Shown here in pieces: positions 23,060 through 27,801 of a stretch of 43,997 nt of DNA. The first letter of the stretch is position 1; each line of letters starts with the position of its first letter. The DNA is from Acidimicrobiales bacterium (GTDB lineage: Bacteria > Actinomycetota > Acidimicrobiia > Acidimicrobiales > RAAP-2), in assembly GCA_017883025.1 (NCBI GenBank), contig JADGOH010000116.1, positions 1-43,997 on the forward strand, given 5' to 3'. Position numbers and translations under genes: made by a program. The notes below the pieces were generated by a model. That model saw only the letters and a list, made by a program, of their open reading frames with translations. It searched no databases and was not told the DNA's origin.

Positions 23060-23830
23060 ATGGGTGTCATGAAGCGCATGTCCGGGATTCTCCAGGCAAA
23101 GACCAACAAGCTCCTCGACAAGGCCGAGGATCCCCGCGAGTCCCTCGACCTGTCATACCAGAAGCTGCTCGAGAACCTCCAGAAGGTCCGCCGCAGCGTG
23201 GCCGACGTCACCACCGCGAAGAAGCGGATCGAGCTCCAGGCCACCCAGCTCCAGGCCCAGGCCGACAAGCTCCAGCAGCAGGCCAAGGACGCCCTCGGCC
23301 AGAACCGCGAGGACCTGGCGCGCGAGGCGCTGGCCCGCCGGGCCGCCCTGGCGCCGCAGCTGACCGACCTCCAGACCCAGCACCAGCAGGTGGCCGACCA
23401 GGAGCAGAAGCTCATCGCCACCGCCCAGAACCTGCAGGTCCAGGTGGACGCCTTCCGCACCAAGAAGGAGACGATGAAGGCCACCTACACGGCGGCCGAG
23501 GCCCAGACCAAGATCGGCGAGGCGGTCTCGGGCATCTCCGAGTCGATGGGCGACGCCGGCATGTCGGTGCAGCGGGCCCAGGACAAGATCGACTCGATGC
23601 AGGCCCGGGCCGGCGCCATGGACGAGCTCCTCGCGTCGGGTGCCCTCACCGACCTGACCAATCCGGTCGACGACATCCAGGCCCAGCTCGACCAGGTGTC
23701 GAGCTCGAGCGCCGTCGACGCCGACCTCGCCGCGCTCAAGGCCGAGATCGGTACGGGCGCCGCGGCCCAGCTCGGTGCGGCCGGGCCAGCCGCCCCGACG
23801 CCGGTCGAGTCCGGGGAGGCGCCGGCATGA
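23060..23830 (+). CDS. pspA: phage shock protein A / IM30 family
   Basis: A 256-residue ESCRT-III-like coiled-coil protein that coats and repairs stressed membranes. The amphipathic N-terminal helix is MGVMKRMSGILQAKTNKLLD, followed by the family motif AEDPRESLDLSYQKLLENL. A long Gln/Lys/Ala-rich coiled coil runs from about residue 40 to 150. The C-terminal quarter is Ser/Ala/Pro-rich and probably flexible. The ATG follows a GAGGAAGGA site. It leads a four-gene cluster and overlaps pspAA by 4 bp. No pspF or pspBC is present, which is the usual actinobacterial situation. Confidence 0.93.
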   Translation: MGVMKRMSGILQAKTNKLLDKAEDPRESLDLSYQKLLENLQKVRRSVADVTTAKKRIELQATQLQAQADKLQQQAKDALGQNREDLAREALARRAALAPQLTDLQTQHQQVADQEQKLIATAQNLQVQVDAFRTKKETMKATYTAAEAQTKIGEAVSGISESMGDAGMSVQRAQDKIDSMQARAGAMDELLASGALTDLTNPVDDIQAQLDQVSSSSAVDADLAALKAEIGTGAAAQLGAAGPAAPTPVESGEAPA

Positions 23831-24105
23831 TCGTGCGCATCCTGGGCGATGGGCAGTTCGACGTCCCCGAAGCCGAACGCGAGGCCCTCCACCAGCTCGA
23901 GGCCGCCCTGAACGCCGCCGTCGAGGGCGACGACGAGACTGCATTCGGCTCCGCCCTCGCCGCCGTCATCGCCGAGGTCCGCCGGGTCGGGACCGAACTG
24001 CCACCCGACTCGTTCACCGCGTCCGACCTGGTCGTGCCCTTCGACGACGCCACCCTGGACGAGACCAAGTCGCTGCTGGCCGAGCCCGGCGGGGACGATC
24101 GCTGA
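23827..24105 (+). CDS. pspAA: PspA-associated protein PspAA
   Basis: A 92-residue protein starting MIVRILGDGQFDVPEAEREALHQL, the typical opening of PspAA. The following acidic helix and the central AALAAVIAEVRRVGTELPPDSFTASDLVVP segment fit the family. Its ATG overlaps the pspA TGA (ATGA), so the pair is translationally coupled. PspAA is known as a small partner of PspA in actinobacteria and archaea, thought to link membrane remodelling to stress output. No metal site or membrane span is seen. Confidence 0.88.
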   Translation: MIVRILGDGQFDVPEAEREALHQLEAALNAAVEGDDETAFGSALAAVIAEVRRVGTELPPDSFTASDLVVPFDDATLDETKSLLAEPGGDDR

Positions 24106-24135
24106 CGTCTCGCCCGTGATCCCGAGGAACCCCGA

Positions 24136-25074
24136 ATGAGCACCGCCCGCAACATCCCGAACGACCGCGGACTGACCCTGCGGATGTTCGCCACCGGTCT
24201 CATGCTCGTCTTGCTCTACGGGGCCGTCATCGGCATCCTCATCGCCGTGGGCATCTCCTACGCGCTGGTGCTGGTGATCGCCGGCGCGCTCCTGTTCTGC
24301 CAGTACTGGTTCTCGGACAAGATCGCCCTGTACGGCATGGGCGGGCGCATCGTCACGCCCGAGGAGGCCCCTCAGCTGCACGGGGCCATCGACCGGCTGT
24401 GCGCCATGGCCGACATGAAGAAGCCCCGGGTCGCCATTGCCGACACCGATGTCCCCAACGCCTTCGCCACCGGCCGCAGCCCGAGCAGCGCCGTGGTGTG
24501 CGCCACCACCGGGCTCATGCGCCGGCTCGACGAACCCGAGCTCGAGGCGGTGCTCGCCCACGAGCTCTCCCATGTGGCCCACCGGGACGTGGCCGTGATG
24601 ACCATCGCCAGCTTCCTCGGCATGGCGGCCGGCATGGTCACCCGAATGATGCTGTGGACCGGGATGATGGGCGGATTCGGCGGCGGAAACGACAGCAACA
24701 ACAACCAGGGTGGCGACCAGGCCGTGCTGGTCGAGATGGCCGTGCTGGTCGTCTCGGTCGTCGTCTACGCCATCAGCTTCCTGCTCACGATGGCGCTGTC
24801 CCGCTACCGCGAGCTGGCCGCCGACCGGTCGGGGGCGATCCTCACCGGGCAGCCGTCGGTCCTGGCGTCCGCCCTGGTCAAGGTCACCGGTGACATCGCC
24901 CGCATCCCGACCCGGGACCTCCGCTCGACCGAGAGCTTCAACGCCTTCTACTTCACCCCGGCCATCGCCAAGAACGGCGTGAGCATCTCGACGATCTTCT
25001 CGACGCACCCCTCCCTCGACCAGCGCCTCGCCCAGCTCGCCTCCCTCGAGGCCGAGATGGGCCGTCCCTCGTGA
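24136..25074 (+). CDS. htpX: M48 family membrane metalloprotease HtpX
   Basis: A 312-residue inner-membrane zinc protease that degrades misfolded membrane proteins. Two N-terminal helices (GLMLVLLYGAVIGILIAVGI and ALVLVIAGALLFCQYWF) come first. The zinc site HELSH (142-146) lies in LAHELSHVAHRD, and the third ligand glutamate lies in SRYRELAADRSGA. A loop of Gly and Asn (GGGNDSNNNQGG) and two further hydrophobic spans separate them. It sits between pspAA and pspAB, with 30 and 28 bp gaps. This arrangement makes it part of the envelope-stress cluster. Confidence 0.93.
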   Translation: MSTARNIPNDRGLTLRMFATGLMLVLLYGAVIGILIAVGISYALVLVIAGALLFCQYWFSDKIALYGMGGRIVTPEEAPQLHGAIDRLCAMADMKKPRVAIADTDVPNAFATGRSPSSAVVCATTGLMRRLDEPELEAVLAHELSHVAHRDVAVMTIASFLGMAAGMVTRMMLWTGMMGGFGGGNDSNNNQGGDQAVLVEMAVLVVSVVVYAISFLLTMALSRYRELAADRSGAILTGQPSVLASALVKVTGDIARIPTRDLRSTESFNAFYFTPAIAKNGVSISTIFSTHPSLDQRLAQLASLEAEMGRPS

Positions 25075-25102
25075 GCCTGTCCGCGACCGACGGGGCCCGC
25101 TG

Positions 25103-25738
25103 ATGGGCCTCTTCGACTCACTGCTCGGACGCACCAAGCCGGTCCAGTCGAACCTCGATGCGCTCTTCGCACTCCCCTCGGCGTCCATCACCCTGCAGAG
25201 CGCGGCGGGCATGACCTTCTCGGGCCACGCCGGCGTGTGCTTCAAGCCTCCGACGGGACAGGGCTTCGTCGACATGGAGTCCGAGGTCGTGACGCTGCTG
25301 GCGATGGACGGGGGGTCGGGTCTCACCCGGTCCGAGGACTCGTTCGGCTACACGTGGCTGGTCGTGGAGGACGCCGACATCGAGTCCCTGGTCACCCGGG
25401 TCCACCTGGTCAACTCGTCACTGTCGGACGCCGGATGGGGGCCGCAGCTCCTGTGTTCGGTGTTCGGCATGGCCCAGCTGCCCCCCGCTTCCACGTCCCC
25501 CACCGGGAGCGACCCGGTCGAGGAGGGCGCCTCCGTCGGGACCGGCGCGTTGCTCCGCTCCACCGCCTACCTCGTCTACCTGTTCAAACGGGGCACGTTC
25601 TACCCGTTCGTGCCCACCGGCCACGAGCAGCGTTCGACCGAGGAGGAATTCCGGCTCCGCAGCCTGGTGGCAGACGACCTGGTCGTCGAGGGCGACCTGG
25701 ACCGGTGGTTCCCCCTGTGGGACCTCCCCGTCGGCTGA
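25103..25738 (+). CDS. pspAB: PspA-associated protein PspAB
   Basis: A 211-residue protein with the PspAB opening MGLFDSLLGRTKPVQSNLDAL and conserved GYTWLVVEDADIESLVTRVH and YLVYLFKRGTFYPFVPTG segments. The C terminus ends DRWFPLWDLPVG, also typical. It has no membrane span or recognised catalytic motif. It is the last gene of the pspA-pspAA-htpX-pspAB series, reading in the same direction with a 28-bp spacing. Its function is not established. Constant association with HtpX and PspA suggests a regulatory or adaptor role. Confidence 0.87.
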   Translation: MGLFDSLLGRTKPVQSNLDALFALPSASITLQSAAGMTFSGHAGVCFKPPTGQGFVDMESEVVTLLAMDGGSGLTRSEDSFGYTWLVVEDADIESLVTRVHLVNSSLSDAGWGPQLLCSVFGMAQLPPASTSPTGSDPVEEGASVGTGALLRSTAYLVYLFKRGTFYPFVPTGHEQRSTEEEFRLRSLVADDLVVEGDLDRWFPLWDLPVG

Positions 25739-25994: not shown

Positions 25995-26130
25995 CCGGGT
26001 ACGGACCTGCTCAACCAGGCCGGGAACCATTCCACTCCACGTGTCCAGGAATTCTTGAGCCGGGCGTCGCCCAAGGGCCCCACACGGTCTCACCGCTCTG
26101 ACCAGGGAGTACCCGTCCGAAGAGCATGGG

Positions 26131-26154
26131 TTATCCACAGGATTTCCAATGGAA
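26131..26154. promoter_or_regulatory. perfect DnaA box with adjacent palindrome
   Basis: TTATCCACA (26131-26139) is the consensus DnaA 9-mer. Five bases later comes a palindrome, TTCCA-A-TGGAA (26144-26154). Both lie about 60-70 bp upstream of the -10 of the Rpf-like gene. Only one box is seen, so an origin is unlikely; a DnaA-responsive promoter is possible. Confidence 0.4.
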
Positions 26155-26201
26155 GTGGCTGCAGCAGGGGCTGGTGATTACCCGTCGCCCCCTGACCCCG
26201 C

Positions 26202-26207
26202 TACACT
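26202..26207 (+). promoter_or_regulatory. candidate -10 element of the Rpf-like gene
   Basis: TACACT is the same hexamer as at pspA. If used, transcription starts near 26214 and leaves a leader of about 300 nt before the ATG at 26518. Confidence 0.4.
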
Positions 26208-26213
26208 GGTTGC

Positions 26214-26517
26214 TTCCGAGCAGTGGGGACAGTCCCGAGGCCGTCGACCCGAGTGGTCGTGCCCGACACCCCCGGCGCCGCAACCGGCGAGCTCCCGAAA
26301 CGCACCCTCGAGGAGAGTGGCACGTAACGACATCTAGCGAACTTCGGACATGAACACCCGCTAGCACACCCGGCTCTCGGAGCCAGGCCGGCACACCCTT
26401 CCCGGTGCCCGGCTGGGGCGTTGAATGCACAGATGTGGGGTCCACCCAACCAGAAGAGAGTCAGAGCGCCTCCGTCCCCCGACGTGGCTCTGACCGACCG
26501 AGGAAAGGTCACCCGCC
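26214..26517 (+). promoter_or_regulatory. long structured 5' leader, possible cis-acting RNA
   Basis: This stretch of about 300 nt has no credible gene. It can fold into several local stems: CTAGCG/CGCTAG in 26334-26364; a GGCTC-TCG-GAGCC hairpin near 26371-26383; a perfect 8-bp stem GTCAGAGC/GCTCTGAC around 26460-26494; and GACC-GAGGAAA-GGTC just before the start codon, which places the ribosome-binding purines in its loop. The last stem could hide the ribosome-binding site. Actinobacterial rpf genes often carry c-di-AMP (ydaO-type) riboswitches, but the conserved 'CAGCTAACC' 3' element of that class is not found here. Confidence 0.4.
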
Positions 26518-27801
26518 ATGTATTCGGCAACCCCCACTACCCCTGTATCCACACGTACCCACTCCCCTGACCACACCCCCCGCACCGACGCGCCGCCCCA
26601 TACGACCCGTTCGGTCCGACGACGGGCGAAACGTGCCGCGGCCAAGTCCGCCGGCCTCGCCACCGTGGCCGCATCGGCCACCGTCCTGGTGTCCTTGCTG
26701 AGCACTCCGCTACCGGCATCGGCCACCGACTACCCCACCGGCGCCGGCATCGTGCTCAACGCGCCGATCGTTTCGGCCACCGCCACCCCCAGTGGGCACG
26801 GCTACTGGCTCGTCGGGTCCGACGGCGGCGTGTTCGCCTTCGGCGACGGCGGCTTCCACGGGTCGGCGGGGAGCCTGCATCTGAACAGCCCCATCGTCGG
26901 CATGGATGCCACCCGGTCCGGCAACGGCTACTGGGAGGTCGCCGCCGACGGCGGCGTGTTCGCCTTCGGCGACGCCGGCTTCCACGGGTCGATGACCGGC
27001 GCCCCGCTGCACGACCCGATCGTTGGCCTGGCGCCCACGGCGGACGGCAACGGCTACTGGCTCGTCGGCGCAGACGGCGGCGTGTTCGCCTTCGGCGACG
27101 CCGCCTATCTTGGCTCGGCCATCGGCATGTCCCCGACCAGTCCGATCGTCGGGATCGCCCCGACGACGGACGGCAGGGGCTACTGGGAGCTCGCTGCCGA
27201 CGGCGACGTCTACGCCTTCGGCGACGCTCCGTTCTACGGCACCGCACCGGTGCGGACACCGGCCGTCGGCATCAACGCCGCCGACGGTGGCTACCGCGTC
27301 GTCTCCAGCGACGGCGGCACCTTCGCCTTCGGCGGGGCCACCTTCAGGGGCTCGCTCGCCGGCCTGGCGCTCAACAAGCCGATCATGGGCACGTCCTCGA
27401 CCGGCGGCGGCTACGTCCACGTGGCTGCTGACGGTGGCGTGTTCAACTTCGGGACGGTCGGCTTCTACGGCTCGTTGGGCGGTGCCACGCTCTACGTGCC
27501 GCCGGCCCCGGCGGCACCTGCGGGCGGCGACTACGGCCTCACGGCCGGGCAGATCGCCGCATGGAGCCGGGTCAACGTCTGCGAGGAAGGCGGCAACTGG
27601 CACGTCGAGGGGTCCGTCTTCTCGGGCGGCCTCGGCATGAGCCGCGCCAACTGGAACCAGTTCAACACCTTCGGGTTCCCGTCGGACGCCGCCAACGCCT
27701 CACCGCTGCAGCAGATCCGGGTGGCGGTGGGCTTCGCCAGCCACTACTTCGGCAGCCCGTATGCGGCTCCGGACCAGAACGGCTGCACCGGCGGGTACTG
27801 A
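26518..27801 (+). CDS. secreted protein: six propeller-like repeats fused to an Rpf-like transglycosylase domain
   Basis: A 427-residue exported protein. A long signal peptide has an Arg/Lys-rich region (RRRAKRAAAK), a hydrophobic core and a likely cleavage after ASA (about residue 69). Six repeats of about 40 residues follow (about 72-325), built on GYWLVGSDGGVFAFGDGGF-type units and typical of Acidimicrobiia. They are probably blades of a beta-propeller. The C-terminal domain (about 337-427) starts WSRVNVCEEGGNW with glutamate E356 at the position of the catalytic Glu of resuscitation-promoting factors, then GGLGMSRANWNQF and a QQIRVAV segment. It ends with a Cys near the C terminus. Muralytic cleavage of peptidoglycan is the expected activity, with the propeller as a binding or localisation module. 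Confidence 0.82.
   Translation: MYSATPTTPVSTRTHSPDHTPRTDAPPHTTRSVRRRAKRAAAKSAGLATVAASATVLVSLLSTPLPASATDYPTGAGIVLNAPIVSATATPSGHGYWLVGSDGGVFAFGDGGFHGSAGSLHLNSPIVGMDATRSGNGYWEVAADGGVFAFGDAGFHGSMTGAPLHDPIVGLAPTADGNGYWLVGADGGVFAFGDAAYLGSAIGMSPTSPIVGIAPTTDGRGYWELAADGDVYAFGDAPFYGTAPVRTPAVGINAADGGYRVVSSDGGTFAFGGATFRGSLAGLALNKPIMGTSSTGGGYVHVAADGGVFNFGTVGFYGSLGGATLYVPPAPAAPAGGDYGLTAGQIAAWSRVNVCEEGGNWHVEGSVFSGGLGMSRANWNQFNTFGFPSDAANASPLQQIRVAVGFASHYFGSPYAAPDQNGCTGGY

Follow-up and report, generated by a model that had tools for sequence, protein, structure and literature searches.

A structured RNA leader before Rpf-type wall hydrolase genes of the Acidimicrobiales, and a propeller-Rpf fusion gene behind one of its copies

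A gene of an Acidimicrobiales bacterium encodes a protein that joins a propeller, predicted to be six-bladed, to a C-terminal Rpf domain, and directly upstream of it, at 26357-26517, stands a leader that is conserved as RNA structure, as seen from the covariation of its paired positions. The gene lies in a window of 43,997 nucleotides, by which we mean the whole stretch of DNA that was analysed, and its reading frame, domains, predicted folds and orthologs were established by computation. The RNA family is so far limited to part of the order, where its members precede Rpf genes and in one case a propeller-NlpC/P60 gene; we regard it as a candidate class of cis-regulatory RNA acting on wall hydrolase genes. 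Taken as a whole, we consider it probable that the gene encodes a secreted transglycosylase of the Rpf kind, that its propeller aims it at the envelope, and that a cis-acting RNA switch lies upstream. Rpf enzymes wake dormant actinobacteria, and the leader RNA gives a handle on the question of which signal prompts their synthesis; should the leader bind a ligand, that ligand would be a natural cue to grow or to leave dormancy and a lead for cultivating these bacteria, and the propeller fusion would be a new way to aim an Rpf enzyme. The gene and its protein have the following parts.

26518 to 27801, plus strand: the whole propeller-Rpf gene, an open reading frame of 427 amino acids with an ATG start and a TGA stop
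26518 to 26724, plus strand: N-terminal signal sequence, residues 1-69, read by eye from a basic stretch, a hydrophobic stretch and ASA
26767 to 27453, plus strand: predicted six-bladed beta-propeller, residues 84-312, from the repeats, AlphaFold2 and structural matches
27538 to 27798, plus strand: Rpf or transglycosylase-like domain, residues 341-427, from Pfam, alignment and predicted fold
27583 to 27585, plus strand: codon of E356, the putative catalytic Glu, from alignment with RpfE and RpfC

An earlier note on this DNA had proposed that the C terminus is an Rpf-like domain with a lysozyme-like fold and a glutamate at the Rpf catalytic place, and the searches and models bear this out. A Pfam profile search places PF06737 at residues 347-404, with E = 1.2e-9 and a score of 39.1 bits (cut-off 27). 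All five solved sequences that match the domain are RpfE, RpfC or RpfB entries. Modelled alone from an alignment of 34 sequences, the domain is predicted with a pLDDT of 89.4 and a pTM of 0.84, and the best solved match of this model is RpfB (4emn; Z 10.6, rmsd 3.0, 76 residues aligned, with a Foldseek E of 3.1e-4); the other Rpf entries (an NMR structure of an Rpf domain, RpfE and RpfC) reach Z 9.6-10.5, whereas lysozymes and Slt stay near Z 6. The motif is VCEEGGNW. Its first Glu, E356, stands next to the Cys, where RpfE and RpfC have the Glu of CESGGNW, and this alignment, together with what is known of Rpf proteins, makes E356 the putative catalytic residue. Rpf domains are typically closed by a disulfide; the 427-residue protein has only two cysteines, C355 and C423, which might form one, in a model whose C-terminal end is poor. 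The protein is predicted to be secreted, and it would be expected to be muralytic.

The RpfC and Rpf equivalog cut-offs of NCBIfam are not reached (29.3 versus 200 bits and 17.9 versus 180 bits), and the Rpf subtype is rare, because a 93-residue C-terminal query finds matches in only 7 of 347 genomes. The stretch that reads GGLxF or GAYQF in other Rpf proteins is GGLGM here, and the last residues of the domain are poorly modelled, which might be taken to mean that the Rpf part has degenerated to a non-catalytic binder and that the propeller is the working part. We think this quite improbable, however: four positions of the CEEGGNW stretch (C, E, one G and W) do not vary among the 34 aligned sequences, the fold is predicted to be kept, and GGLG is itself invariant in the subfamily, which suggests a working variant. 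The preferred reading thus stays with an enzyme of the Rpf kind.

The six-unit propeller repeat that the earlier note had described is likewise present. There are six repeats of about 42 residues, with a GY motif at residues 95, 137, 179, 221, 258 and 298, and AlphaFold2, run on the whole protein with 17 sequences (mean pLDDT 75.6), predicts six blades of three strands each between residues 84 and 312, with pLDDT near or at least 90 in most ten-residue blocks of region 81-310. Foldseek searches with the predicted model return beta-propellers; among these candidates the top solved match is the designed protein Pizza6 (6f0t; Z 19.6, rmsd 3.2, 216 residues aligned), followed by the NHL propeller of TRIM2 (7b96; Z 19.2, rmsd 3.4, 225 aligned), both of which we take to be six-bladed propellers. 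No Pfam family matches the propeller above its cut-off, RCC1_2 and DUF4859 matching below theirs, and NHL is absent from the three Pfam families listed for the protein at E up to 10.

The source genome (2.5 Mb in 178 contigs, 71.65% complete) uses this propeller widely. Searching it with the propeller-Rpf protein gives 45 matches, nearly all in the propeller, at 26 places by our grouping. When Pfam was run on ten of the propeller-matching open reading frames, the partners above cut-off were CAP, SpoIID, NlpC/P60, TIG, CHAP, F5/8 type C, PQQ_2 and PKD; one frame (L014) has no Pfam family and another (L005) a single family below cut-off. Four propeller genes, including the one described here, have a wall-related partner (Rpf, SpoIID, NlpC/P60 and CHAP). 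Since the propeller is joined to so many domains, a general envelope-binding or display part is favoured. That TIG, PKD and PQQ_2, parts with no evident wall role, are among its partners also fits an alternative in which the propeller binds other proteins or outside polysaccharide, so that the enzyme acts on neighbours or prey; this we regard as unlikely, given that the leader family described below also precedes plain, propeller-less Rpf genes of the order, which fits housekeeping of the cell's own wall. In the reading that we prefer, the propeller would be an extracellular binding part of general use that anchors the enzyme to the envelope or directs it there.

The fusion is, as had been suggested, an uncommon architecture. 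When genome contigs were scanned with an alignment of the Rpf domain, 19 loci were found, and only four of these have propeller motifs in the same open reading frame (L060, L061, L062 and L064, whose Rpf domains are 84%, 82%, 69% and 49% identical to the present one, respectively); among 35 viral loci that encode a related Rpf domain, one of which (L092) has a frame cut at its 5' end, none shows such motifs in the frame. Because both parts are conserved in the orthologs, the fusion is not a chance product. Before the gene, L060-L062 keep the end of PspA (where these loci are cut), HtpX and PspAB, and after it they keep a pterin dehydratase, a P450 and a fumarase, whereas at L064 none of these six neighbours is found. 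In the window, PspA/IM30, an M48 (HtpX-like) protease and PspAB occupy 23063-25738, before the leader; we note that these form an envelope-stress set, which is also found in the three orthologous loci.

In a tree of the Rpf domain, built from 83 columns and with 6 of 31 inner branches well supported, the L064 domain groups with plain Rpf proteins, and the branches with good support require the label to change twice. The fusion therefore seems, with modest support from this tree, to have arisen at least twice or to have been lost. Two loci recorded as Candidatus Saccharibacteria (L072 and L077) encode Rpf-type proteins of the same subfamily. Viral rows are the nearest outside kin of the target group in this tree, with the branch support just given, and the 35 viral contigs concerned (L079-L113) carry short Rpf-type domains, some of them nearest outside kin of the target domain. 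A phage origin of the protein was considered and rejected, as it has no match in 50,697 phage records (E 1e-5).

The leader, which the earlier note does not mention, came to light in an alignment of the DNA before related Rpf genes, with and without a propeller, in which a stretch is conserved up to the start codon; this alignment contains 16 sequences, three of the first 19 (L072, L077 and L078) having been left out as dissimilar. Its parts in the window are as follows.

26357 to 26461, plus strand: leader core, the span of the covariance-model match
26358 to 26362, plus strand: P1 5' strand CCGCU, pairing with 26433-26438 with one bulged base, from the aligned window leader and pair counts
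26433 to 26438, plus strand: P1 3' strand AUGUGG, from the aligned window leader and pair counts
26364 to 26366, plus strand: P1b 5' strand GCA, pairing with 26426-26428, with 100% of cells paired; also found de novo in the sequence-only alignment
26426 to 26428, plus strand: P1b 3' strand UGC, from pair counts and the sequence-only alignment
26369 to 26371, plus strand: P2 5' strand CCC, pairing with 26416-26418, from pair counts and the sequence-only alignment
26416 to 26418, plus strand: P2 3' strand GGG, from pair counts and the sequence-only alignment
26372 to 26384, plus strand: P3 hairpin GGCU...AGCC, from pair counts and the sequence-only alignment
26386 to 26414, plus strand: P4 hairpin with loop CUUCCC at 26398-26403, from pair counts, its foot also in the sequence-only test
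26460 to 26494, plus strand: downstream hairpin GUCAGAGC...GCUCUGAC, predicted in a fold of the last 72 nt and in the whole-leader centroid
26496 to 26510, plus strand: hairpin with the Shine-Dalgarno run GAGGAAA (26500-26506) in its loop, predicted in the same two folds

Two covariance models were used. R1, made from nine leaders with the window leader excluded, matches the window leader with 34.2 bits (E 2.1e-5) and gives weak matches before Rpf genes of other families; two leaders (L041 and L050) were added by pattern search. In the alignment termed A6, three matches presumed to be due to chance were excluded by a tighter E-value, at which leader L046 was lost too. R1 proved too narrow, with a match in 1 of 198 genomes, and a second model, R2, was therefore trained on 13 diverse leaders, including that of the window, so that its score for the window leader (77.5 bits, E 8.0e-16 for its genome) is that of a training row; R2 recovered both L046 and L050, the latter never part of A6.

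The pairing is kept by covariation. In the 13 leaders, 92.9% of cells are paired and 22 of 26 pairs have compensatory changes, compared with 69.3% and 12.2 in shuffled alignments, none of 500 being as high, and sliding the partner columns by one to three reduces pairing to 31-46%. With 39 distinct leaders the values are 91.5% and 23 of 26 pairs, the poorly kept ones being the inner pair of P1 and two upper pairs of P4. Both of these alignments were fitted to the structure. With a sequence-only alignment of 26 leaders, RNAalifold finds P1b, P2, P3 and the foot of P4 unaided; P1 is not found in this test, the P1b and P2 columns are invariant, and compensatory changes occur in 5 of 14 pairs. Across the 26 leaders of alignment A10, P2 is CUCG/CGAG. 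Folded alone, the window leader does not surpass its shuffled versions (z 0.13), and P1 is missing from the minimum-energy fold. We considered whether the upstream conservation might reflect a short leader peptide or a DNA operator and not an RNA structure. All 39 leaders tested do have an AUG in or beside the core, but the frames that start there run from 2 to 467 codons and are spread over the three phases with respect to the gene (16, 9 and 14 leaders). A leader peptide was rejected on these inconsistent lengths and phases, and since the paired positions change together, we regard this whole explanation as extremely unlikely and the leader as a conserved RNA.

In a search of 298 genomes of the order that was blind to genes, R2 gives 43 matches in 39 genomes and, by our count, 14 families; 40 of the 43 are in families other than that of the window, and six are training rows (the window, L115, L116, L118, L123 and L124). 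In four matches the gene is cut by a nearby contig end (L114, L122, L127 and L128). All 39 readable genes downstream, on the strand of the RNA, encode wall hydrolases, 38 with PF06737 and one with NLPC_P60, and with the training rows excluded this is 33 of 33 (32 with PF06737 and one with NLPC_P60). Overall, 41 of the 43 leader loci carry PF06737, the exceptions being the cut locus L128 and L139, from another family of the order, in which a leader at 1501-1631 is followed by the propeller-NlpC/P60 gene at 194-1459 on the minus strand. For L119 and L141 the downstream frame is the one preceded by a Shine-Dalgarno run, chosen by hand, and both carry PF06737. R2 was trained on leaders of Rpf genes, and some bias to near kin remains. 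The genome of the window has a second copy (L114, at 8447-8551 of contig C55; 122 bits with R1), whose gene is cut by the contig end after 26 bases. The records with the leader are those of Acidimicrobiaceae, Acidimicrobiales and relatives.

Beyond the order R2 found a single weak match. A class sample gives matches in 3 of 198 genomes, all within the order, and a phylum sample in 3 of 296, two in the window's own family and one weak match outside the order (L144, E 0.038), for which an Rpf motif was not seen in the inspected parts of its frames. Within the order, the leader is found in 39 of 298 genomes versus 115 of 148 for PF06737, and it was missed in most of the sampled Rpf-bearing genomes. 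Searches over 40 genomes used stricter filters, by which weak copies are lost, so these absences hold only at the sensitivity of the search.

None of the leaders searched matches an RNA family of Rfam 15. At gathering thresholds the whole window has only a tRNA (1167-1237), 15 loci give a tRNA and 20 loci tRNAs only; at E up to 5, window positions 26000-26700 give one snoRNA match only (13.5 bits, E 1.8) and positions 900-1350 of L049 none. A comparison with c-di-AMP control is called for by Streptomyces, in which the ydaO riboswitch terminates rpfA transcription once c-di-AMP is bound; S. coelicolor has this riboswitch at six further wall hydrolase genes (PMC10117811). The ydaO family, RF00379, has no match at E up to 5 in the window leader and L049, none at gathering in 35 loci, and none in 148 genomes of the order searched with stricter filters, for which the Bacillus subtilis and Corynebacterium glutamicum controls were positive. 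A search for the c-di-AMP synthase in 14 leader-bearing genomes found a DAC match in nine and none in five, four of which are 92-97% complete. One could argue that the leader is a strongly diverged ydaO riboswitch with the role seen at Streptomyces rpfA, as both stand before wall hydrolase genes (PMC10117811), the post of RF00379 looks vacant in the order, and most of the leader-bearing genomes searched have a DAC match. Nonetheless, the failure of the window leader and L049 to match RF00379 even at E up to 5 and the leader-bearing genomes that lack a synthase match make this very unlikely. With the family not found in the 148 genomes and five leader-bearing genomes lacking a synthase match, a signal other than c-di-AMP is likely.

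How might the leader act? The mRNA would start with the conserved RNA, in which a closing stem (P1/P1b), P2 and the hairpins P3 and P4 are arranged about a junction; the stretch from there to the ribosome site is less conserved. The leader would be transcribed together with the gene. Most likely it would be a cis-acting switch, such that the hydrolase is made only when a cellular signal permits the wall to be opened, for growth or for exit from dormancy; on this reading the RNA would serve cells that are waking up or growing. Sequestration of the Shine-Dalgarno run as a shared off-switch was tried and rejected: across 39 leaders, pairing of the run averages 0.54 versus 0.60 in shuffled controls (60 shuffles per leader, the run being the first match within the final 20 bases; Wilcoxon p 0.35). 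In three of the four leaders of the target type (the window, L060 and L062, but not L061) the run is predicted to be unpaired in a hairpin loop. A pseudoknot between the P4 loop and a purine run before the gene was also rejected, as by eye the loop varies without change in its partner. Neither a terminator-like site on the gene's strand nor a sigma-70-like promoter is found between 25700 and 26650.

To our knowledge there is no candidate protein for binding the leader. A cis-regulator that binds a protein, tRNA or ribosome, like the leaders of ribosomal protein genes, and not a metabolite, would nonetheless account for the compact junction, the short conserved stretches and the nearly single type of target gene, and a protein ligand has been raised as an alternative for the rpfB switch of Mycobacterium tuberculosis (PMC6009663). 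We judge this somewhat unlikely, our impression being that the conserved unpaired bases round the junction resemble an aptamer. A fuller proposal, which we put forward as a tentative possibility, is that the leader is a new riboswitch class of part of one Actinomycetota order, which senses a wall or growth signal, governs Rpf hydrolases in place of the c-di-AMP riboswitch of Streptomyces, and controls enzymes to which propellers have been joined repeatedly.

We found no report of an Acidimicrobiia rpf RNA leader or of a propeller-Rpf fusion in the open-access literature searched, and the terms resuscitation and Acidimicrobi are absent from the main text of three RNA discovery papers (PMC11109978, PMC6429828 and PMC2864571). 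Rpf proteins have been divided into ten subfamilies by domain make-up, with LysM, DUF348 and G5 as accessory parts, and a propeller is not named among these in the available part of that account (PMC1084345). Among known RNA systems, the leader is like the ydaO riboswitch of Streptomyces rpfA in being a structured RNA that lies in the 5' leaders of genes for Rpf and further hydrolases (PMC10117811); unlike it, the leaders tested here have no RF00379 match, and that family was not found in the 148 genomes at the sensitivity used. An RNA switch also controls rpfB in M. tuberculosis and, as here, lies in the 5' UTR of its rpf gene, but it is called transcriptional and restricted to pathogenic mycobacteria (PMC6009663), whereas the present leader has no terminator-like site on the gene's strand; the two are likened by description.

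Relative to NHL propellers and Pizza6, the present propeller has no Pfam NHL match and only three strands assigned per blade, yet it has six repeats of about 42 residues and these proteins are its best structural matches. Compared with RpfB, RpfC and RpfE of M. tuberculosis, its accessory part is a six-bladed propeller and not LysM, DUF348 or G5 (PMC1084345), its GGLGM stretch is a variant, and its scores are far below the NCBIfam equivalog cut-offs; like them, it has a lysozyme-like domain, a CExGGNW motif with the Glu after the Cys and, by eye, a secreted design. The protein is accordingly a new form of a known kind of enzyme, and the RNA before its gene is a candidate for a new class among regulators of a known type.
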